Part shown: positions 2,769 to 38,640 of the stretch, piece by piece | Layout of the letters: every line of letters starts with the position of its first letter | Numbering within the stretch: the stretch's first letter is position 1 | From: Candidatus Poseidonia sp. | GTDB lineage: Archaea > Thermoplasmatota > Poseidoniia > Poseidoniales > Poseidoniaceae | Length of the DNA stretch: 38,640 nucleotides | Direction: 5' to 3' | NCBI GenBank assembly: GCA_030741355.1 | Contig: JASLVM010000005.1 | Span: 1 to 38,640, forward strand | Program-made: the position numbers and the translations under genes | The notes under the pieces: generated by a model | What the model was told of the DNA's origin: nothing | Databases searched by the model: none | What the model saw: only the letters and a program-made list of their open reading frames with translations

Positions 2769-3929
2769 TCAAGCCTTGGCACCAATGCCCGAGGCGATTT
2801 GACGAGCACTCATGGGTTTCTCAGCCACCCACTGCTGGTTGAACAGTTCCTTGAGGTCCTCTTCGTCCTGAGCGGTTGGGAGATGCGCAGCCATGTAGGC
2901 GTTCCATTCGTCATCGGAGCCCTCGAAGAGCGTTCCTTCAACGGTGTATCGCTGGCGCTTGAAGTGGCCAATCTCACGGTGGAAGTTTTCGTGCGGGACG
3001 TACAAATCCGCGGCGCCTTCAGGGAGGTAGCCACACAATTTCTTGACCTCACGAACGATTTCCTCGTGGTAGTGCTGGCGAGCTTCTTCGTTGAGCGTTT
3101 CCTTGGACACTTCGATGTCAGCATCGAGTTTCTTTCGCTCGTCCCAACGTCCTTTGATGCCCCAGACATAAGCCCAGTGAGCGGAGGATGATTCATCGAC
3201 ACCAAACAGGTCGTGAGCGGTTGAAACCCACTTGTTGATGTAGCGCTGGAGCATGTCCAAGGGGATCACGCCGGCTTTGATGATGCGGCGGAGGCCGTTG
3301 GAGCCGGTACCCAAGTGGAAGGACTCTTCCTTCAGCATGGGTCCCATGCTGGCTGCGAGTGGCTTGAAGGCCGAGGTTGAGAGCATGCCCAACTGGAACT
3401 TTCCGTCTCGGTCAACGAACATGGTGTAGCAGAAGAAATCCAGCCAGTGGGGCATGGGTCGGTTGAAGGCGCCCAGCAATCGGTCGCCGTCCTGAGCGTT
3501 GCGCTCGAGGAGTTTTTGTGCCTCACGTCGTCCTTGTTGACCGAAATAGGTCATGAGGAGGTAAGCCATTTGCCAGCCGTGGCGCTGTTCCTCGGCCATG
3601 ATGCGGGCCGCAGCGTAGCGGTCATAATCGGTTGGTGCGGTGGCGAGAAGGTGTCGCTGCTGCTCGACGGAAGCGAACTCGGTGTCGCCTTGAACGGTGA
3701 TCATGCTGACCAAGGCATCACGCATGCTTTGGTGTGGGACTTGAAGAGAACGTTCCCACTTGGTGCGGCCAGCGTAGTCGCCAAACTCAATCACGTCGCC
3801 AGCACGCTCCCAGTCAAACTGAATCGAGAGGTCGAAATCGCCCATCCATTCTCGGTCGTAGCCGACGTTGTCTTGCCAGGCCTTGAAATTTTCAATCCAG
3901 TCATCCCAGGTCTTCGGTAGGTTGTCCAT
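2769..3929 (-). CDS. boxB: BoxB-like benzoyl-CoA 2,3-epoxidase oxygenase component
   Basis: BoxB is the di-iron oxygenase of the aerobic benzoyl-CoA pathway, which epoxidises the ring of benzoyl-CoA with electrons from BoxA. The 386-residue sequence follows the BoxB layout from memory of the family: GDTEFASVEQQRH (81-93), a second helix with MAEEQRHGWQM (111-121), LLGAFNRPMPHWLDFF (151-166), DRDGKFQL (173-180), KEESFHLG (200-207), AGVIPLDMLQRYI, and DLFGVDESSS followed by GIKGRW. Glu89, Glu114, His117, Glu202 and His205 are the expected metal ligands, so it should be active. It is shorter at the N-terminus than bacterial BoxB (about 470). No boxA or boxC is in the window. The TATA box 26-29 nt upstream predicts a leaderless mRNA. 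A ring-hydroxylating role on another acyl-CoA (PaaA-like) remains possible. Confidence 0.85.
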   Translation of the reverse strand: MDNLPKTWDDWIENFKAWQDNVGYDREWMGDFDLSIQFDWERAGDVIEFGDYAGRTKWERSLQVPHQSMRDALVSMITVQGDTEFASVEQQRHLLATAPTDYDRYAAARIMAEEQRHGWQMAYLLMTYFGQQGRREAQKLLERNAQDGDRLLGAFNRPMPHWLDFFCYTMFVDRDGKFQLGMLSTSAFKPLAASMGPMLKEESFHLGTGSNGLRRIIKAGVIPLDMLQRYINKWVSTAHDLFGVDESSSAHWAYVWGIKGRWDERKKLDADIEVSKETLNEEARQHYHEEIVREVKKLCGYLPEGAADLYVPHENFHREIGHFKRQRYTVEGTLFEGSDDEWNAYMAAHLPTAQDEEDLKELFNQQWVAEKPMSARQIASGIGAKA

Positions 3930-13983: not shown

Positions 13984-15003
13984 ATGGGAGCACCGCCGAG
14001 GTTCCAACTCTGTTTGGTAGGCGGCACGTTTGACCGCCTGCATGCAGGCCACCGTCTGTTGCTTGATGCAGCTTGCCGAGCAGCGGCTCGAGTCGAAGTT
14101 CACCTCACCAACGATGCCATGGCTGACCAAAAATCCGTGAACATGCAATCGTTTGAAACACGGCGTGATGAATTGTTGAACTGGGTGGCTTCCAACGCTC
14201 CAACCCGAGTATCCATTCATGCATTGAGCGATCATCACGGCCCCGCGCCCAGCCATCCAACGGCAGATGCCATTGTCGCAACCCCTGAAACCAAGGCAGA
14301 ATGCGAACGTATCAACGAACGTCGGGCCGAGAACGGTCTTGCTTCGCTCCACATCATTGAAGTCGCTCACTTGACCGATGTTAACGGGCAGATCATCAGT
14401 TCGTCTCGGATACGTAACGGTTTGGTTGACATGGATGGCCATCCTTGGTTCTCAACCGAATGGGAGGGTCGAGTGTTGCGCATGCATCCCCGAGCCGAAC
14501 CTGAACTGAAAACACCGATGGGTGCTCTCTACAAGGGCCCAGAATCGACGCCCGAGGTGGCCATGCTGGCGGCCCTGGAAGACATTGACACTTCGCAAAC
14601 CATCCTCATTGCGGTGGGGGATGTGACGGTCTCAACGCTCCTTTCGCTTGACATCGTCCCCGACATGGGTTTCATCGACGGCCAAACCAAACGAACGGCG
14701 CTGGCTGAGGAGGAACAGGTGGACCTCTCGCCGTTTACCCATCGGATTCGAGCAACCAATCCCGCAGGCGAATTGACGCCTGAACTCAAGGATGCCGTGG
14801 CTCAGGCCGCACATCTTGAGGAACCCGTGGTGGTGGTGGTTGAAGGTGAAGAAGACCTTGCGCCGTTGTACATTCACCTTCACGTTCCGCTGCACGCCGT
14901 TGTCCTCTACGGTCAACCCGGTGTTGGTGTTGTTGCTCAATCGAGCAGCCTCGAGACCAAAACCCGCTGCCGACGCCTCCTGGAATTGTTCGAGGTGGTT
15001 TGA
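13984..15003 (+). CDS. Fused phosphopantetheine adenylyltransferase and GTP-dependent dephospho-CoA kinase
   Basis: The N-terminal half (1-160) is the archaeal adenylyltransferase (COG1019): GGTFDRLHAGH at 13-23 is the nucleotidyltransferase HxGH signature and ISSSRIR at 138-144 the second one. The C-terminal half (about 175-339) is DUF359/COG1909, shown in Thermococcus to be the archaeal GTP-dependent dephospho-CoA kinase. Its motifs are GDVTVSTLL (212-220), FIDGQTKR (230-237), VVVEGEEDLAPL (283-294) and LYGQPGVGVV (308-317). One 339-residue chain would thus catalyse both last steps of CoA synthesis, a parallel to eukaryotic COASY built from an unrelated kinase. The stop is followed directly by the GTG of the glycosyltransferase (TGAGTG). 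Confidence 0.9.
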   Translation: MGAPPRFQLCLVGGTFDRLHAGHRLLLDAACRAAARVEVHLTNDAMADQKSVNMQSFETRRDELLNWVASNAPTRVSIHALSDHHGPAPSHPTADAIVATPETKAECERINERRAENGLASLHIIEVAHLTDVNGQIISSSRIRNGLVDMDGHPWFSTEWEGRVLRMHPRAEPELKTPMGALYKGPESTPEVAMLAALEDIDTSQTILIAVGDVTVSTLLSLDIVPDMGFIDGQTKRTALAEEEQVDLSPFTHRIRATNPAGELTPELKDAVAQAAHLEEPVVVVVEGEEDLAPLYIHLHVPLHAVVLYGQPGVGVVAQSSSLETKTRCRRLLELFEVV

Positions 15004-16740: not shown

Positions 16741-17982
16741 TCACAGCGAGGTTTGATGGTGGTAATTGGCGTTGAAGACCACGTGCATTTCTTCCTCTGC
16801 TGTCGACATGATTTTTCTCACGTCCACGTTGGTTGGGATGCAGGAATTGATCTCCTTTGACCGACCGTAGCGACCTTTGCTGACCGTGCGGGCGGTGACC
16901 AAACCAAGCATGTCAAGATTGGAGATGAGTCCCGAAATCCTTCGTTGAGTCAACGGGTTTTGACGAATGTGCTGGCAGGCTTGCCGATAGATGTCGTACA
17001 CTTGTCCTGTTTGCACGTTTCGAAGACCGTTTTGCTCGTTGAGTAAAATGGAAGCCAAGACCAATTTTTGTTGACTTGGAAGGGTGGCGATGACCGGCGT
17101 CATTTGGTCGGATTCAATTTGACTCTGGGCGATGCGCACGTGGTTTTGATTGACGGTATCCTCGCCCGATTGTTCTGCTTTCTCGGCTGAAATGCGGAGC
17201 AGGTCAAGTGCACATCGTGCATCACCGTGTTCTTGTGCGGCCAAGGCAGCACACAATTCAATGACGCCCGGTCCGATGGCCTCGGCGTCGAGTCCGTCTT
17301 GGGCGCGTTGGCGAAGGATGTCCTGGAGTTGTTCTGCATCGTAAGGACGGAAGAGCACGTCCAACTGTCCCAATCGGGAGCGGACCCTTGGGTCAAGGAA
17401 GTCGGTAAATTTGAGGTCGTTTGAGATGCCGATGACACAGGCTCGTGCGCTCTTGAGCGAGGAATTCATGTTGGTCAGGTTGTAGAGCAGGTCATCGCCG
17501 GCCTTTCTCACCAAATGGTCAATTTCGTCGAGGACGATGACAAACACGCCGCCCCGTCGATCCATTCGTCGAATGAGCTCGTTGAAGACTCGGTCGGTCG
17601 GCCATCCCGTGAACGGGATTTCATCTTGTTCAAAATCCTCGAGCAGTGAATTTCCGATGTGGCTCAAGACCCTGTATTGGGTGTCGATTTGTCGGCAATT
17701 CACCATGATCGACTCGACTTGGCGACCCATGGTTTCGCCTTTGGCCCGGAGATGGTGGCACACATAGTCGGTGACGGCGGTCTTTCCCGCCCCGGTCACC
17801 CCGTACAACGTCATGTTGCTGGGAATGTGTCCTTTGAGGGCCTCCCAGAGGTTGTAGGAGATTTTCTCAATTTCTTGTTCCCGGTGAGGGAGGCGATGAG
17901 GCCTGAAGTTGTGGCGGAGATGTTCTTTGTTCTTGAAGAGGGTTTTCTGGGAAACGAACTTGTCAAAGATGTTGGTCTCCAC
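16741..17982 (-). CDS. cdc6: Orc1/Cdc6 replication initiator
   Basis: The archaeal Orc1/Cdc6 protein binds origin repeats and helps load the MCM helicase. The 413 residues show an AAA+ domain: Walker A GVTGAGKT (61-68), Walker B FVIVLDEID (147-155), sensor 1 GISND (185-189), DPRVRSRLG (197-205), and sensor 2 HGDARCALDLLR (252-263). A C-terminal winged helix follows (RRISGLISNLDMLGLVTAR). The start is a GTG at 17982, preceded by AAGGAGGTGA eight bases upstream, the strongest Shine-Dalgarno site in the window. Upstream lies a repeat-rich region (17983-18075). The archaeal origin is often next to this gene. It is 413 residues, a normal size for the family. Confidence 0.95.
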   Translation of the reverse strand: METNIFDKFVSQKTLFKNKEHLRHNFRPHRLPHREQEIEKISYNLWEALKGHIPSNMTLYGVTGAGKTAVTDYVCHHLRAKGETMGRQVESIMVNCRQIDTQYRVLSHIGNSLLEDFEQDEIPFTGWPTDRVFNELIRRMDRRGGVFVIVLDEIDHLVRKAGDDLLYNLTNMNSSLKSARACVIGISNDLKFTDFLDPRVRSRLGQLDVLFRPYDAEQLQDILRQRAQDGLDAEAIGPGVIELCAALAAQEHGDARCALDLLRISAEKAEQSGEDTVNQNHVRIAQSQIESDQMTPVIATLPSQQKLVLASILLNEQNGLRNVQTGQVYDIYRQACQHIRQNPLTQRRISGLISNLDMLGLVTARTVSKGRYGRSKEINSCIPTNVDVRKIMSTAEEEMHVVFNANYHHQTSL

Positions 17983-19115: not shown

Positions 19116-20366
19116 ATGACTGGTTGGTCTGCAAAAAACCCCTACATGACACAAATTACTGAGAACTACATTCTCAACGGCGAGGGCTCTCGCAAAGAGA
19201 CGCGACACATCGTCTTCGCGTTGGGAGACTCAGGCATGGATTACAAAGTCGGCGATGCGCTCGGTGTCCTTGCGGAAAACCCACCGCACATCGTTGACGA
19301 ACTGCTCGAAGTCCAAGGTTGGGACCGCGAGGCTACGGTCACCACGCACAACGGAGAGCGTTCGCTCTACGATGCCCTCAAGAAGGACTTTGAAGTCCAC
19401 ATGGCGAACAAAAAATTCGTCCAATCTCTCGCCGAGAAAGTCGTCTCTGCCGGTATGAAAATCTCAATGAGCATCGTTTCTCGAACCCGAAACGAGAACG
19501 CTTGGTCGGCTTCTGACGATGAGCAGATGCCCCCGGCGCTTCGTCCATCGGTTCCATCCGACGACCCAGCGGCTCAAGTCGAAGCCATCACGGCGGACAC
19601 CAAGGCCATTGAGGATTATCTTTGGACTCGCGATTACGTGGACATCATGCGAGAATTTGAGGTGAAGTACACGCCTGAGGAATTCCTTGAACTGGCCGAC
19701 CGCCTCAAGCCCCGTCTCTACTCCATCGCATCTTCCCACGATGCTCACCCGGGCTTTGTGGAATTGACCGTGGGTATCGTCCGCTTCGAATACAACGGAC
19801 GGGCGCGCGGTGGATTGTGCACCCAATTCATGGCCGACGAAATCGATACCTCCGGTGCCCCCATCGGCGTGTTCATGTCACCAACGAAATCCTTCATTCT
19901 CCCCGAAGACAAGGACACGGACATCATCATGGTTGGCCCCGGCACCGGTATTGCGCCGTTCAGGGCCTTCATGGAACAGCGTGTCCATGACGGTGGCTCG
20001 GGCAAGAATTGGTTGTTCTTTGGCGACCAGTCGGCAAAAACAGAATACTACTACAAAGATGAAATTGAGAGTTGGGTTGATGAAGGCCACCTCTGGCGCT
20101 TCACCACCGCTTGGTCTCGAGACCAAGAAGAGAAAATCTACGTTCAACACCGTCTCAAGGAGCACGGTGCGGAAGTTTGGGAATGGTTCGAACGAGGGGC
20201 TTACTTCTACATCTGCGGCGACAAACAGTACATGGCCAAAGACGTTCACCGTGCCTTGATTCAAATCGCCATCGACCACGGTGGCATGTCTGAAGAGGAC
20301 GCTACGCACTTCATCGAGAAGACGATGATGCGCGAAGAAAAGCGCTACCTTCGAGATGTTTACTGA
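19116..20366 (+). CDS. CysJ-type FAD/NADPH reductase without flavodoxin domain
   Basis: This protein transfers electrons from NADPH through FAD to a partner. It resembles the ferredoxin-reductase half of sulfite reductase flavoprotein. Family parts are KNPYMTQITENYILNGEGS, YKVGDALGVLAENPP, RLYSIASS (FAD), GGLCTQFMAD, GPGTGIAPFRAFM (NADPH), WLFFGDQ, and YFYICGDKQYMAKDVHRALI near the C-terminus. The 416 residues lack the N-terminal FMN-binding flavodoxin domain of CysJ, so a separate flavodoxin or ferredoxin, or direct use by a hemoprotein, is expected. No sulfite reductase hemoprotein is nearby. It could serve as reductase for the BoxB oxygenase, though BoxA proteins carry ferredoxin domains absent here. 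It converges on the next gene with stop codons abutting as TGATCA. Confidence 0.88.
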   Translation: MTGWSAKNPYMTQITENYILNGEGSRKETRHIVFALGDSGMDYKVGDALGVLAENPPHIVDELLEVQGWDREATVTTHNGERSLYDALKKDFEVHMANKKFVQSLAEKVVSAGMKISMSIVSRTRNENAWSASDDEQMPPALRPSVPSDDPAAQVEAITADTKAIEDYLWTRDYVDIMREFEVKYTPEEFLELADRLKPRLYSIASSHDAHPGFVELTVGIVRFEYNGRARGGLCTQFMADEIDTSGAPIGVFMSPTKSFILPEDKDTDIIMVGPGTGIAPFRAFMEQRVHDGGSGKNWLFFGDQSAKTEYYYKDEIESWVDEGHLWRFTTAWSRDQEEKIYVQHRLKEHGAEVWEWFERGAYFYICGDKQYMAKDVHRALIQIAIDHGGMSEEDATHFIEKTMMREEKRYLRDVY

Positions 20367-21138: not shown

Positions 21139-22479
21139 ATGGGCTTCAAGCGCGTCCTGATTGCTAACCGCGGCGAAATCGCTCTTCGCATCCTGCGAAC
21201 CCTCCGGGATATGGGCATCGAGGCGGCCATCATCCACGGCCGAGAAGACCGACTCTCGTTGCCCGTCCAAATGGCGGACATTGCTTATCCAAACTACCGT
21301 GCGAACCCGTTGGATTCCTACCTTGACATCGAAGCCGTGGTGCAGGCGGCCAAGGAACTGGAATGCGATGCCGTGCATCCAGGCTATGGTTTCCTTGCCG
21401 AGAACGCTGCCTTTGTTGCTCGTCTTGAGGAGGAAGGCATCACGTTCATTGGGCCTGCCTCGGGTGTGATCACGCTGCTTGGCGACAAAATCGAGGCTCG
21501 CGCTGCGATGGAAGCAGCCGGGCTCCCAACGGCCAAGGGGTCCTCCGAACCCATTGCCAGTGCAGACGTCGCCAGCGCACTCGCCGATGACATCGGTTAT
21601 CCAGTCATCATCAAAGCCGCCGCTGGTGGAGGCGGCATCGGCATGCAAATCGTGCAAAAAGCCGATGAATTCGAGAGCGCACTGAAGTTGTGTCAATCCC
21701 GTGCAAAGTCGGCCTTTGGCGACGAGCGGGTCTTTGTCGAAAAGTACATCCAGGGCGCTCAGCACGTGGAATTCCAAGTCTTGGCTGATGGAAAGAACGC
21801 CATTCACTTCGGTGAGCGCTTTTGCTCGATTCAACGACGCCATCAGAAACTTGTCGAAGAAGGCCCTTGGTTGACCGATGAAAAGCGAGCCGAAATTGGA
21901 GCCCTTGTGTGCCAAGGGGCCGAATCGGTTGGATACAAAGGACTGGCAACTTTTGAGTTTCTGCGTGACGCCAACGGGGATTTCTATTTCCTTGAAGTCA
22001 ACCCTCGTGTTCAGGTGGAACACACGGTGACTGAACTCATCACCGGGCACAACCTTGTCGAACTTGGTATCCGAGTGGCTCAAGGCGAAGCGCTGCCGCT
22101 GAAGCAAGAGGACATCACGTGGCGTGGACACGCCATCCAGTGCCGCCTCAACGCCGAGGATCCCCGGGAATTTGTTCCAAGCCCAGGTCGCTTGTGGGAG
22201 TGCCATTTCCCGAGTGGCTTTGGTATCCGTTGCGATACCCACGCCCACCCTGGCTACGAGATGCCGGGTTGTTTCGATTCCTTACTGGCCAAACTCTTGG
22301 TGTGGGGACGAGACCGTGAGGACGCTGTACGTCGGATGAAAACGGCGCTGGACGAGACCATGATCACCGGTGTAGAGCATTTGATTCCGCTTCATCGTCG
22401 AATCATGGATGAGGAAGACTTCAACAACGGCGATATCACGATTCAGTACATTGACATGCACCAAGAATTGCTTGGTTGA
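21139..22479 (+). CDS. accC: Biotin carboxylase subunit (AccC/PccA type)
   Basis: Biotin carboxylase adds carboxyl phosphate-derived CO2 to biotin on its carrier protein, the first half-reaction of acetyl/propionyl-CoA carboxylase. The 446 residues have the N-terminal LIANRGEIALRILRTLRDMG, HPGYGFLAENA, ATP-grasp with GDK (115-117) and AAAGGGGIGMQ (160-170), ERFCSIQRRHQK, LEVNPRVQVEHTVTE, and RLNAEDP. It ends before any biotin-carrier domain, so it is a stand-alone subunit. The usual GGGGRGM/GGGGKGM is GGGGIGM here, as in some acyl-CoA carboxylases. No carboxyltransferase or biotin carrier gene is in the window. It could carboxylate acetyl-CoA for the ketosynthase at 36859, but this is inference. 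Confidence 0.93.
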   Translation: MGFKRVLIANRGEIALRILRTLRDMGIEAAIIHGREDRLSLPVQMADIAYPNYRANPLDSYLDIEAVVQAAKELECDAVHPGYGFLAENAAFVARLEEEGITFIGPASGVITLLGDKIEARAAMEAAGLPTAKGSSEPIASADVASALADDIGYPVIIKAAAGGGGIGMQIVQKADEFESALKLCQSRAKSAFGDERVFVEKYIQGAQHVEFQVLADGKNAIHFGERFCSIQRRHQKLVEEGPWLTDEKRAEIGALVCQGAESVGYKGLATFEFLRDANGDFYFLEVNPRVQVEHTVTELITGHNLVELGIRVAQGEALPLKQEDITWRGHAIQCRLNAEDPREFVPSPGRLWECHFPSGFGIRCDTHAHPGYEMPGCFDSLLAKLLVWGRDREDAVRRMKTALDETMITGVEHLIPLHRRIMDEEDFNNGDITIQYIDMHQELLG

Positions 22480-33900: not shown

Positions 33901-34767
33901 ATGGTCTATGACGGCCCGATTTTGGACAATCACTTCCACCTCAATCGCAAGGGCTTGTTTCTTGATGCTGCACGTTCGTTTCAACGCGTGGGCGGGACCG
34001 ATTTGGTGCTCGTCCACTGCCCCGACTTTTCTTCACCGCCCGAGACCTTGGAAGGTCATCGCTCGGCCTATGCCGATACGCTGAGCATGGCAAAATCTGT
34101 CCGGGAGGAAGTGGGTCTCGGGGTTCGCGTGGTGCTTGGCCCGCATCCTGCTGCCTTTGCTCATCAATTCGAGCGCTGGGTTTCGCAGGATGGCGAGGCT
34201 GGGAAAGAACGTGCGATTGAAAATTATCGGCATTCCATCCAGGCCGCTCTTGATTTCGTTCACGAGGGCCAGGCGCATGCCATCGGCGAAGTCGGCCGCC
34301 CACATTGGCCCGTTTCGGATGAAATTTGGGACCTTTCAAATGAACTTCTGGATGAGACATTACACCTCGCTGCGCAAGAGGGTCTGCCGCTTCAGTTGCA
34401 CGTTGAAGGAGAGAGCGAGGACACGTATCCAGATTTGGCTCAGCGGGCCTTGCGCCAAGGCATGGATTTGAGAAAATTGATTCGACATTATTCTCCTCCC
34501 GACGTGCGAGAGGATCATACTCATGGATTGACGCCGAGTGTTCTCTGTGGGAAAGGCGCCTTGGAACGCCTGATTGAAACCCACGGGATGGCCAAAAACG
34601 GCTTTTTCCTCGAAACAGATTACATGGACGACCCCCGAAGGCCTGGGGCCGTGCTCGGGCCGAAAACCGTTCCAAAACGAACGCAACAGCTTCTCGCTGC
34701 TGGTGTGGATGAAGAGGTCATGTGGAACACGCACAGTGCACTACCGAACCTCGTCTATGGAGAATAA
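33901..34767 (+). CDS. Archaeal TatD-like metal-dependent hydrolase (COG1831)
   Basis: This 288-residue TIM-barrel hydrolase of the amidohydrolase superfamily carries metal ligands in order: DNHFH (9-13), HAIGEVGRP (Glu in GEVGR), LPLQLHVEG (His), and ETDYMDDPRRPGAVLGPKTVP, the signature tail of the archaeal COG1831 group. The group is distinct from bacterial TatD deoxyribonuclease but shares the fold; DNase or phosphodiesterase activity is inferred from the superfamily only. The ATG at 33901 follows TGAGGGAGCCGC, where the previous stop and ribosome binding site overlap. Its stop region is followed by the second surface-protein gene after 84 nt. Its partner genes give no clear hint of its substrate. 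Confidence 0.82.
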   Translation: MVYDGPILDNHFHLNRKGLFLDAARSFQRVGGTDLVLVHCPDFSSPPETLEGHRSAYADTLSMAKSVREEVGLGVRVVLGPHPAAFAHQFERWVSQDGEAGKERAIENYRHSIQAALDFVHEGQAHAIGEVGRPHWPVSDEIWDLSNELLDETLHLAAQEGLPLQLHVEGESEDTYPDLAQRALRQGMDLRKLIRHYSPPDVREDHTHGLTPSVLCGKGALERLIETHGMAKNGFFLETDYMDDPRRPGAVLGPKTVPKRTQQLLAAGVDEEVMWNTHSALPNLVYGE

Positions 34768-36057: not shown

Positions 36058-36849
36058 ATGCTTGGACTGGAAGGTAAAACGGCCTTTGTGTTTGGTGTTG
36101 CCAGTGAAGACTCCATTGCATGGGCGATTTGCAAACAATTGGCAGCTGCTGGCGTCACGCTGTATTTGGGGTATCAGAAGCGCTTCATGAGCCGTGTGTT
36201 CAAACTCAAAGACGAACTTCCAGCCATCGGCGGTTTCTACCCGCTCGATGTCGCCTCTGACGGCACCACGCAGGAATTTTTCACGGCGTTTGCCGCTGAC
36301 CATCCTGGAAAGAAAGCGGACATTCTGGTCCACGCCATTGGGTTTGCTCCACGCTCTTGCTTTGACCGCCCTATCCTTTTCGTGGAGGACGACGACATCA
36401 ACACCGCCATGACCATTTCAGCGAATTCTCTTCAACGCTGCCTCAAGCACGCTTTGCCCTATCTCAATGCGGGGTCGTCCACCATCACCTTGACCTATGC
36501 TGCCTCCAACAGGTTCGTCCCCAGCTACGGCATCATGTCCATGGCCAAAGCGGCCTTGGAATGCTGGACACGTGAACTGGCGTGCCACCTTGGTCCCGAA
36601 GGCCACCGGGTCAACGCCATCTCCTCGGGCCCCATCCGCACCATCGCCGCCAGCGGGATTCCGGGATTTGACCGAATTCTCGACCACGTTGAAGCCAATG
36701 CGCCTCTTCGAAGAAATGTCAGCCAAGCCGATGTTGCAGGCGCCACCCTTTGGCTTGCCAGCCCCCTTTCGGCTGGCGTCACCGGGCAGTGCGTCTACGT
36801 CGATGCAGGCTATTCCATCACAATGGTGCCGGAGAGCATCATGAACTGA
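36058..36849 (+). CDS. fabI: Enoyl-ACP reductase FabI
   Basis: FabI reduces the trans-2-enoyl group on acyl carrier protein in type II fatty-acid synthesis, with NADH or NADPH. The 263 residues are close to bacterial FabI in length and order: GKTAFVFGVASEDSIAWAI (6-24), LYLGYQKR (35-42), FDRPILFVEDDDIN, LTYAASNRFVP with Tyr147, YGIMSMAKAALE with Tyr157 and Lys164 as the active pair (Y-x6-K), SSGPIRTIAASGIPGF, and VTGQCVYVDAGYSITM. Archaea normally have no such enzyme, so transfer from bacteria is likely. The start is supported by GGAGG six bases upstream. It precedes a type I ketosynthase by 9 nt, so the two form one operon. Confidence 0.94.
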   Translation: MLGLEGKTAFVFGVASEDSIAWAICKQLAAAGVTLYLGYQKRFMSRVFKLKDELPAIGGFYPLDVASDGTTQEFFTAFAADHPGKKADILVHAIGFAPRSCFDRPILFVEDDDINTAMTISANSLQRCLKHALPYLNAGSSTITLTYAASNRFVPSYGIMSMAKAALECWTRELACHLGPEGHRVNAISSGPIRTIAASGIPGFDRILDHVEANAPLRRNVSQADVAGATLWLASPLSAGVTGQCVYVDAGYSITMVPESIMN

Positions 36850-36858
36850 GGTGTGCAC

Positions 36859-38640
36859 ATGACCTTGACCACAGCAGACGGCAAACCCTGTGAGGGAATT
36901 GAGCAGGGTCCTTTCGAGCCCATTGCCGTCATTGGTTTGGGCGCTTTGATGCCCGATGCCCATGACATCGATGCCTTTTGGCAAAACATCCTCGATGCCA
37001 AAGTAAGCATTCGTCCGTTGCCCGATGGCAGGTGGCCCGGCCCTGTTGACCACTTCTGGAAGGAAGGCGGCCCCGGAGAACACACGGAAGGCTACACTTA
37101 CGCAAAAATTGGAGCGCTTGTCTCCGATGCAGAATTTGATTGGCGACGATGGCGCCAACCCCCCGGCACCCTCCCACAAATCGACCCGTGCCAGTTGTGG
37201 GCGGTTTCCGTGTCTGCCGATGCCATCGAGCATGCAGGTTATGGTGGCGAATCCAGTGATATCGATCGCACCAAGACCGGCGTGGTCTTTGCCAACGCGC
37301 TCGGCGGTGAAAACCGCAACCTGTCCAACCTTCGCGTGTGGTCAAACCACACCACGGCTCTGGCCAAAGCACACGGTCTTCCAGAGGCCAATGTGGACGG
37401 CTTTACCGAGGCGGTGTTGGAAGGGGCGCCAAGAGTGGACGAAGACACCATGCCGGGTGAATTGGCCAACGTCGTTTCAGGACGGGTTGCCAACCTGCTT
37501 GATTTGCAAGGGCCGAACCATGCGATGGATGCTGCCTGCGCCTCCTCGATGGCGGCCGTTCTCGATGCCTGCCGGCTGCTTCAAACGCGCCAAGTCGACG
37601 TCATGCTGGCGGGGGCGACGGACCGAACGATGGACCCTGCAACGTTTGCAAAATTCTCTGCTATCGGGGCACTTTCCCCGACGCATTCCTCGCCCTTTGA
37701 TGCTCGAGCCAACGGCTTTGTCATGGGTGAAGGCGCTGGCGTGTTGGTGCTCAAGCGCCTTAGCGATGCCATTCGTGATGACGATGAAATTTACAGCGTC
37801 ATCCGAGGTATTGGCGGCTCATCCGACGGCCGAGGCAAAGGCATCACCGCCCCGAGCCAACGCGGGCAAATCCAAGCCATCGCCCGTGCTTACAACCAAG
37901 CGGGCTACCCTGCATCTTCGGTTGAATTGGTGGAAGCCCACGGAACCTCAACCAAGGTGGGCGACGCCACAGAACTTTCCACCCTTTCCAGGCTATGGAC
38001 GGGAGTTGAAGGCACTGGAAACGTAGCCGTTGGCTCCATAAAATCTCAAATTGGCCACCTCAAAGCAGCAGCAGGTATTGCAGGCATCATGAAATCGGTC
38101 ATGGCCCTCCACCACCGAACCATTCCTCCAAGTGCGAATTTTGAGACGCCAAACCCCACGGTCGACTGGTCCAACATCCCATTTTTCGTACCCACGGCCC
38201 CCATGGAATGGCCTCGGCCTGCCTCAAACCCTCGCCGGGCCGGCGTTTCGGCGTTTGGCTTCGGCGGCACCAATTTCCACATCGCGCTTGAGGGCTACGA
38301 GCCTGATTACCACGCCCCCTTGGCCTCCGAATGGGATGCGCGCTGGTCAGCCTACAGCGGGCAAGCCGCCCAAGAAGCCCCTTCCATCTTCGACCCGACG
38401 CTTCCCGCCACCATGTCGCACGAGTCCATGAAAGCGATTGAAGGCGGGGTCCTCTTGCTTTCGGACGACTCCCTGGAATCCCTCCAAGCCCAACTCGCCA
38501 ACCTCACGTTTGACGGCCCGTTGTTTGATGACGACCCCAAGGGGCGACGTTTGTCCGAAGCTCTCCAAACTGCCAGCCACGCGTTTGAGCCCGCTCAGCC
38601 GATTCGAATGGCGCTGGTAGCGACTTCGTGGGCCGAGTTT
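36859..38640 (+). CDS. Type I beta-ketoacyl synthase, N-terminal part (PfaA/PKS-like), cut by window edge
   Basis: The first 594 codons are visible. The KS domain has IAVIGLGALMPDA, GVVFANALGGEN, MDAACASSMAAV with active Cys227, VEAHGTSTKVGDA with His361, and KSQIGHLKAAAG with His400; the C-H-H spacing (134 and 39) is that of a full condensing enzyme. VSAFGFGGTNFH is the usual C-terminal KS signature. After residue 470 a linker begins (PIRMALVATSWAEF), as seen before the acyltransferase domain in PfaA-type synthases. The protein should be a large multidomain synthase for a fatty acid or polyketide. It follows fabI by 9 nt with GAGGTG nearby. The remaining domains lie beyond the window. Confidence 0.9.
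   Translation, partial: MTLTTADGKPCEGIEQGPFEPIAVIGLGALMPDAHDIDAFWQNILDAKVSIRPLPDGRWPGPVDHFWKEGGPGEHTEGYTYAKIGALVSDAEFDWRRWRQPPGTLPQIDPCQLWAVSVSADAIEHAGYGGESSDIDRTKTGVVFANALGGENRNLSNLRVWSNHTTALAKAHGLPEANVDGFTEAVLEGAPRVDEDTMPGELANVVSGRVANLLDLQGPNHAMDAACASSMAAVLDACRLLQTRQVDVMLAGATDRTMDPATFAKFSAIGALSPTHSSPFDARANGFVMGEGAGVLVLKRLSDAIRDDDEIYSVIRGIGGSSDGRGKGITAPSQRGQIQAIARAYNQAGYPASSVELVEAHGTSTKVGDATELSTLSRLWTGVEGTGNVAVGSIKSQIGHLKAAAGIAGIMKSVMALHHRTIPPSANFETPNPTVDWSNIPFFVPTAPMEWPRPASNPRRAGVSAFGFGGTNFHIALEGYEPDYHAPLASEWDARWSAYSGQAAQEAPSIFDPTLPATMSHESMKAIEGGVLLLSDDSLESLQAQLANLTFDGPLFDDDPKGRRLSEALQTASHAFEPAQPIRMALVATSWAEF

Follow-up and report, generated by a model that had tools for sequence, protein, structure and literature searches.

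The window analysed here, the first 38,640 bases of the 62,331-bp contig C83, closes within a three-gene operon of an uncultured archaeon, probably a marine one, that encodes, in order, a FabI-type reductase, a giant synthase and an Sfp-type PPTase. We read this locus, with a probability of roughly 0.7, as a complete and compact iterative type I fatty-acyl synthase of the Type R class, vertically inherited within its archaeal order, with FabI acting in trans and the PPTase arming ACPs at threonine.

Two families, small genomes and a missing G1P dehydrogenase family (PF13685, over its cut-off in 0/17 genomes, with one weaker match) fit a Marine-Group-II-like (Poseidoniales-type) order. In the passages available of the lipid literature, the lipids of Marine Group II have not been identified by lipid work (PMC6962369), and which lipids these archaea make is posed as an open question (Besseling et al.), with the corresponding part of Rinke et al. 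(PMC6461757) reporting that 0/270 genomes encode the enzyme behind the archaeal-type glycerol-phosphate backbone. The role of the synthase matters because these lipids have escaped identification. A concrete, complete enzyme is now available to express for this question.

Locus and genomic context

Contig C83 belongs to a genome of 1.97 Mb on 127 contigs, with a completeness of 88.73% and a contamination of 0.18%. The features under discussion are the following, in window coordinates unless stated otherwise:

21139..22479, + strand: biotin carboxylase subunit (AccC-like; NCBIfam PRK08591 556.9 bits, cut-off of 597 not reached)
33901..34767, + strand: 288-aa neighbour conserved 5' of the operon, resembling a hydrolase by eye, in 18/20 loci of the order
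36058..36849, + strand: FabI-type (SDR) enoyl-ACP reductase, 263 aa (Pfam/NCBIfam; PDB 1ulu)
36853..38640, + strand: first 596 residues of the synthase, whose full length is 2,966 aa (ORF; Pfam)
36916..38145, + strand: KS1 domain, synthase residues 22-431, Cys-His-His intact (Pfam PF00109/PF02801; motifs; conservation)
contig C83 45769-46527, 3' of the synthase: PPTase gene, 252 aa, Sfp-type (PF01648, 2.7e-9)

The synthase ORF is open at the window end (38640), where a run of 99 N follows (38641-38739) that may be a scaffold gap, and its frame continues unchanged beyond the run until a stop codon whose last base is 45753, for a protein of 2,966 aa in all; KS2, the Thr carriers and the PPTase are all located beyond the window end. 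The join is supported by relatives in which the protein runs through this point unbroken; in the alignment to G077, whose counterpart is one uninterrupted ORF of 2,946 aa, query residues 597 and 630 abut. There are two possible synthase starts, GTG at 36853 and ATG at 36859, of which the latter lies 9 nt past the FabI stop, the spacing given in the earlier note.

The upstream neighbour at 33901..34767 has no NCBIfam match, and we make no claim that it belongs to the pathway. The AccC-like gene is a possible contributor to malonyl-CoA supply. Elsewhere in the window, a fusion gene at 13984-15003 (+) joins a phosphopantetheine adenylyltransferase of archaeal type, which exceeds its cut-off, to a part resembling GTP-dependent dephospho-CoA kinase, which does not, and an Orc1/Cdc6 replication initiator stands at 16741-17982 (-; 501.4 against a model cut-off of 501), near which a replication origin may be situated. 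A BoxB-like gene at 2769-3929 (-; 232.8 bits, cut-off not reached) and a CysJ/BoxA-like flavoprotein gene at 19116-20366 (+; below cut-offs) hint at an epoxidase acting aerobically on acyl-CoA or aromatic-CoA. Beyond the window and near the synthase, contig C83 carries a CDP-archaeol synthase-like gene at 48735-49388 (L006:12736-13389, -; PF01864 5.9e-28), seen in 5/20 loci of the order, and, from 49621 (L006:13622-19000, -), a large protein, named by eye as subtilase-like, whose many Asp-rich repeats resemble thrombospondin type 3.

FabI and PPTase

The FabI ORF matches Pfam PF13561 with an E value of 3.8e-69, and its closest solved relative is the enoyl-ACP reductase 1ulu (E 3.4e-56, 194 bits), with the NCBIfam FabI equivalog models being its best matches in that collection, none of them reaching its cut-off (best 219.8 vs 391). 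The complete FabI with Tyr147, Tyr157 and Lys164 described in the earlier note is exact as given, and these three residues are invariant in 24/24 FabI-like ORFs adjoining synthases, such that homology in the FabI range is accompanied by a Tyr-Tyr-Lys active site. FabI lies directly 5' of the synthase in 20/20 flanked loci of the order, and is present as a single copy in 20/20 synthase-positive genomes vs 0/19 synthase-negative genomes, the negatives all being of family f2 and the genomes of this sample being related and non-independent. This exclusive co-occurrence supports the proposal, raised as a possibility in the earlier note, that FabI would serve the synthase as a trans-acting enoyl reductase. 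Outside the order, FabI-like ORFs of more than 200 bits stand beside a synthase only at L076, L077 and L123. An apparent FabI cluster among the neighbours of the wider family was rejected, being mostly out-of-frame sequence over a carboxyltransferase.

The PPTase follows a similar pattern in the same sample, with PF01648 found in 18/20 positive genomes (17 over cut-off, the match of G043 falling below it) vs 0/19 negative genomes, and with the gene placed 3' of the synthase in 17/20 loci of the order by phmmer. PF01648 went undetected in two genomes of genus g12, one of which (G001) has, at the expected place, a gene homologous to the PPTase that L098, also of g12, carries. An absence of PPTases from loci with Ser-type carriers (L097-L099) was considered and withdrawn, as a PPTase-like gene was located there, with PF01648 matches in both L097 and L098 and a homologue of the L098 protein in L099 (39% identity).

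Anatomy and family of the synthase

Extension of the contig to the right, as the earlier note had advised, reveals AT, ACP, KR and DH domains and hence a multidomain synthase with the order KS1-AT-KS2-ACPx3-KR-DH. Pfam places a KS at residues 22-431, an AT at 669-968, three PP-binding domains, a KR and a PKS_DH_N domain, and finds no thioesterase domain in the protein; a second, diverged KS at about 1180-1700 (KS2) was recognised by sequence, and the region between AT and KS2 reads by eye as holding a degenerate, ACP-like stretch. The assignment of a type I KS with intact Cys-His-His holds for KS1, which carries the motifs ACASS, EAHGTST and KSQIGH, with the Cys kept in 96/97 aligned family members (the single gap, in L082, falling at a frame break) and the His, Lys and His in 97/97. 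A chain-length factor (CLF) in the usual sense has lost its Cys. KS2 is not such a Cys-less CLF, because its Cys, His, Lys and His are kept in 97/97 family rows, those of bacteria included. The AT bears the motifs GHSLGE and HAFH, the latter of which we take to be malonyl-type. The Ser, Tyr and Asn of the KR, and the His and Glu of the DH (Glu replacing the usual Asp), are present in 21/21 loci of the order. Loss of the KR from Ser-type loci had been suspected from a failed motif pattern, and was discarded on alignment, which shows the Ser, Tyr and Asn to be present.

A scan of named genomes yielded at least 509 relatives, of which the best 80 were used; these best 80 come from Spirochaetota, Elusimicrobiota, Chloroflexota, Acidobacteriota, Myxococcota, Actinomycetota, Heimdallarchaeota and others, and show the same KS-AT-KS2-ACP-KR-DH order where contigs permit, with DH or KR below listing score in a few. 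In a KS1+KS2 tree of 97 rows, the order forms one clade (SH-aLRT 100) on a long stem, splitting by family, as expected under vertical inheritance; the tree was built quickly, with no mixture model, and drew long-branch warnings for L070 and L169 among others, and its group labelled bacteria contains L149, a Thermoplasmatota record. The neighbour clusters of 90 relative loci include biotin-dependent carboxylase/carboxyltransferase subunits at 44, PPTases at 40 and acyl-CoA dehydrogenases at 24, which are lower bounds, as contigs end early, and are named from one scanned representative per cluster.

Distribution and acyl machinery of the genomes

The synthase matches 184/292 genomes of the order, comprising 137/145 genomes of the window's family and 47/147 other genomes, a division which assumes that 88 unlisted negative genomes lie outside the window's family; among the 47, G263 has a single weak match, and the best match of G275, at 73% identity, resembles contamination whose source is family f1. 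Among the genera of the listed rows, the synthase occurs in g12, g15, g17, g19 and g22, and g21 shows one weak match, with g13, g14, g16 and g18 appearing only without it. At the level of the phylum, 103/389 genomes match, 17 of these outside the order. The lack of a match in 100/147 genomes outside the window's family, incomplete genomes included, indicates that the lifestyle as such does not require the synthase, and the many family f2 genomes without it count against a strictly essential membrane role.

Within G000, both strong ketoacyl-synthase matches fall in the synthase protein, and three weak matches (25.7-28.6 bits), tried as further ketoacyl synthases, proved to be two thiolases and one weakly thiolase/synthase-III-like protein. 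Carboxyltransferases are present in 17/17 genomes. PlsC-like acyltransferases occur in 39/39 genomes, synthase present or not, and therefore provide no link of the synthase to membrane lipids. In the genomes tested, FabI, synthase and PPTase occur together, and this trio appears to be their sole ACP-based acyl machinery, with the PlsC-like acyltransferases independent of it.

Threonine at the carrier attachment site

Searched with a pattern that left the attachment residue open, the phosphopantetheine site of the ACPs holds Thr at 292 of 301 motif-matching positions across the family and Ser at the other 9, with no third residue; 8 of the 292 Thr are duplicates from three contigs present twice (L072/L109, L074/L133, L080/L147), and the 301 leave out sites without the motif, with L079 and one half of L125 giving none and L074 losing 1/6 ACPs. 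Among ten extra regions, two (G065, and G245 of genus g19) were without the motif. In alignments with PDB structures, the carrier Thr falls on the attachment Ser of known ACPs. Within the order, Ser is found in five genomes of g12 and g19 where the motif was read (G245 giving none), and Thr in all other genomes where it was read. Ser and Thr are mixed within one protein in L165 (Heimdallarchaeum; S,T,S) and in L075 (Thermoplasmatota G318; S,T,T,T).

The restriction of the site to Thr or Ser fits the need for a hydroxyl group. Outside g12 and g19, the sole PPTase detected has, among the carriers found, only Thr ones to serve, making Thr-phosphopantetheine the simplest reading, and the sequences thus suggest natural attachment of phosphopantetheine to Thr in these archaea. 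A broader statement, to which we give an even chance, is that the whole megasynthase family, spanning many bacterial phyla, Heimdallarchaeota and Thermoplasmatota, arms its carriers on Thr and occasionally on Ser, and that in Marine Group II it is the only fatty-acyl synthase of the cell and provides acyl chains for lipids that nobody has identified yet. If Thr does serve naturally as the attachment residue throughout a large carrier family, this would add to the textbook rule and matter for genome-mining tools that look for Ser.

Proposed function and alternative explanations

From gene order, domains, catalytic motifs, conservation, co-occurrence and the PfaD and FabA-family negatives of 12 genomes, all directly observed, we infer a synthase working as follows. 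The PPTase would arm each of the three tandem ACPs on a Thr that replaces the customary Ser, and the AT, with its malonyl-type HAFH motif, would load malonyl units for condensation by KS1, possibly with KS2. The beta-carbon would then be processed by the KR and the His/Glu DH and the enoyl group reduced by FabI in trans, with repeated cycles leading to a long acyl chain, largely saturated or partly reduced. As Pfam finds no thioesterase domain, the chain would presumably be released to an acyltransferase or to CoA. The product is most likely a largely saturated long acyl chain, with possible use in a membrane or storage lipid.

The earlier note had likened the linker after the KS to PfaA-type synthases, and distant kinship does stand, TIGR02813 (PfaA) being the best NCBIfam match of the synthase at 865.5 bits; this score nevertheless remains under the model's cut-off of 1010.1 bits, and the Type R class is closer. 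Together with the tandem ACPs, this kinship might favour a synthase of the PfaA type with an EPA/DHA-like product. We consider a PUFA an unlikely product, however, because PfaD was over its cut-off in 0/12 genomes (two g12 genomes had matches under 18 bits) and a FabA-family dehydratase/isomerase was found in 0/12 genomes tested, and as the archaeal system has one protein rather than PfaA/B/C, and FabI rather than PfaD, a PUFA synthase was rejected as the main reading and strikes us as improbable. It is somewhat less difficult to envisage a specialised polyketide or secondary metabolite, such as a signal or pigment, in place of a lipid chain. The type I PKS homology and the patchy distribution outside the window's family would agree with such a product, several neighbours are without a family match, so tailoring enzymes are possible, and the available parts of two surveys (PMC10304266, PMC9902471) class as secondary metabolism the T1PKS clusters of archaeal genomes and the PKS transcripts of four Thermoplasmatota genomes in one basin. 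Against this, presence in nearly all genomes of the window's family is unusual for a specialised metabolite, and the full reductive set includes a dedicated FabI, so that we regard a specialised product as rather unlikely and favour the fatty-acyl synthase.

Known carrier proteins use Ser, and the Thr-bearing ACPs could accordingly be inert scaffolds, or be charged at another residue, with the synthase using carriers elsewhere. This is distinctly unlikely, with all motif-matching sites holding Thr or Ser, the PPTase being detected only alongside the synthase, and PF00550 carriers being confined to the synthase in 11/12 positive genomes and found in none of 5 negatives; PF00550 overlooks some of the synthase's own ACPs (1/3 found in G043), and other diverged carriers could therefore be missed. 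The exception, G064, has a second carrier-bearing ORF, PKS-like and with Ser sites, on a contig that is eukaryote-like by eye (C24, L184), which is probably contamination. The possibility that the contig end is bacterial contamination or a chimera, which the earlier note had named as fatal to its interpretation, may draw on the N run at the window end and on the bacterial origin of most of the best 80 of at least 509 relatives. It was rejected, and we consider it negligible, given the archaeal-family genes inside the window (Orc1/Cdc6 and CoaD/dephospho-CoA kinase), a similar GC along contig C83 (53.8-58.8%), orthologues throughout the order with the upstream neighbour shared by 18/20 loci, the single clade that splits by family, and the presence of the operon in the one-contig genome G002. 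With a multidomain synthase downstream and a contig end at home in its order, the earlier interpretation of an archaeal FabI-ketosynthase operon is supported.

Comparison with known systems

The FabI of the operon resembles bacterial type II FabI in its full-length homology and Tyr-Tyr-Lys triad, and differs in having a type I megasynthase as its neighbour and in belonging to genomes where no FabA-family dehydratase was detected. With the Pfa synthase PfaABCDE, the archaeal system shares the KS-AT-tandem ACP-KR logic and a PPTase, but is a single protein plus FabI rather than PfaA/B/C plus PfaD; the TIGR02813 cut-off is not reached, PfaD is over its cut-off in 0/12 genomes, and FabA-like DH domains, as in PfaC, were found in 0/12.

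By its sequence, the synthase matches the class termed 'Type R secondary lipid synthase' by Shulse & Allen (2011, PMC3098273), which the passages available of that paper describe as one pfaA homologue, ordered KS-MAT-CLF-ACP(3-6)-KR, with a PPTase gene after it; the class takes its examples there from Acidobacteria, Elusimicrobium minutum and Roseiflexus, and is of unknown product. The likeness comprises a single protein with KS, AT, a second KS/CLF, tandem ACPs and KR, a PPTase gene directly downstream, and relatives with the same order that include an Elusimicrobium minutum record, Solibacteraceae and Chloroflexi. Common descent is evident in KS1 and KS2, which align in 97 rows with shared catalytic residues, the paper's own strains being known by description. 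Unlike the described class, the archaeal system has a dedicated upstream FabI and a C-terminal DH, and the domain called CLF in the paper is here a KS2 that keeps its Cys-His-His; with the Cys of KS2 kept in bacterial rows too, this mismatch concerns the paper's CLF label and not membership of the class. The words 'archaea' and 'threonine' have 0 occurrences in the available text of Shulse & Allen (2011, PMC3098273), passages searched in Marine Group II and Thermoplasmatota genome papers are without 'polyketide', and the portion of open-access PMC literature covered gave no account of the synthase in archaea or of Thr carriers. As far as these sources extend, the class itself was described from bacteria.
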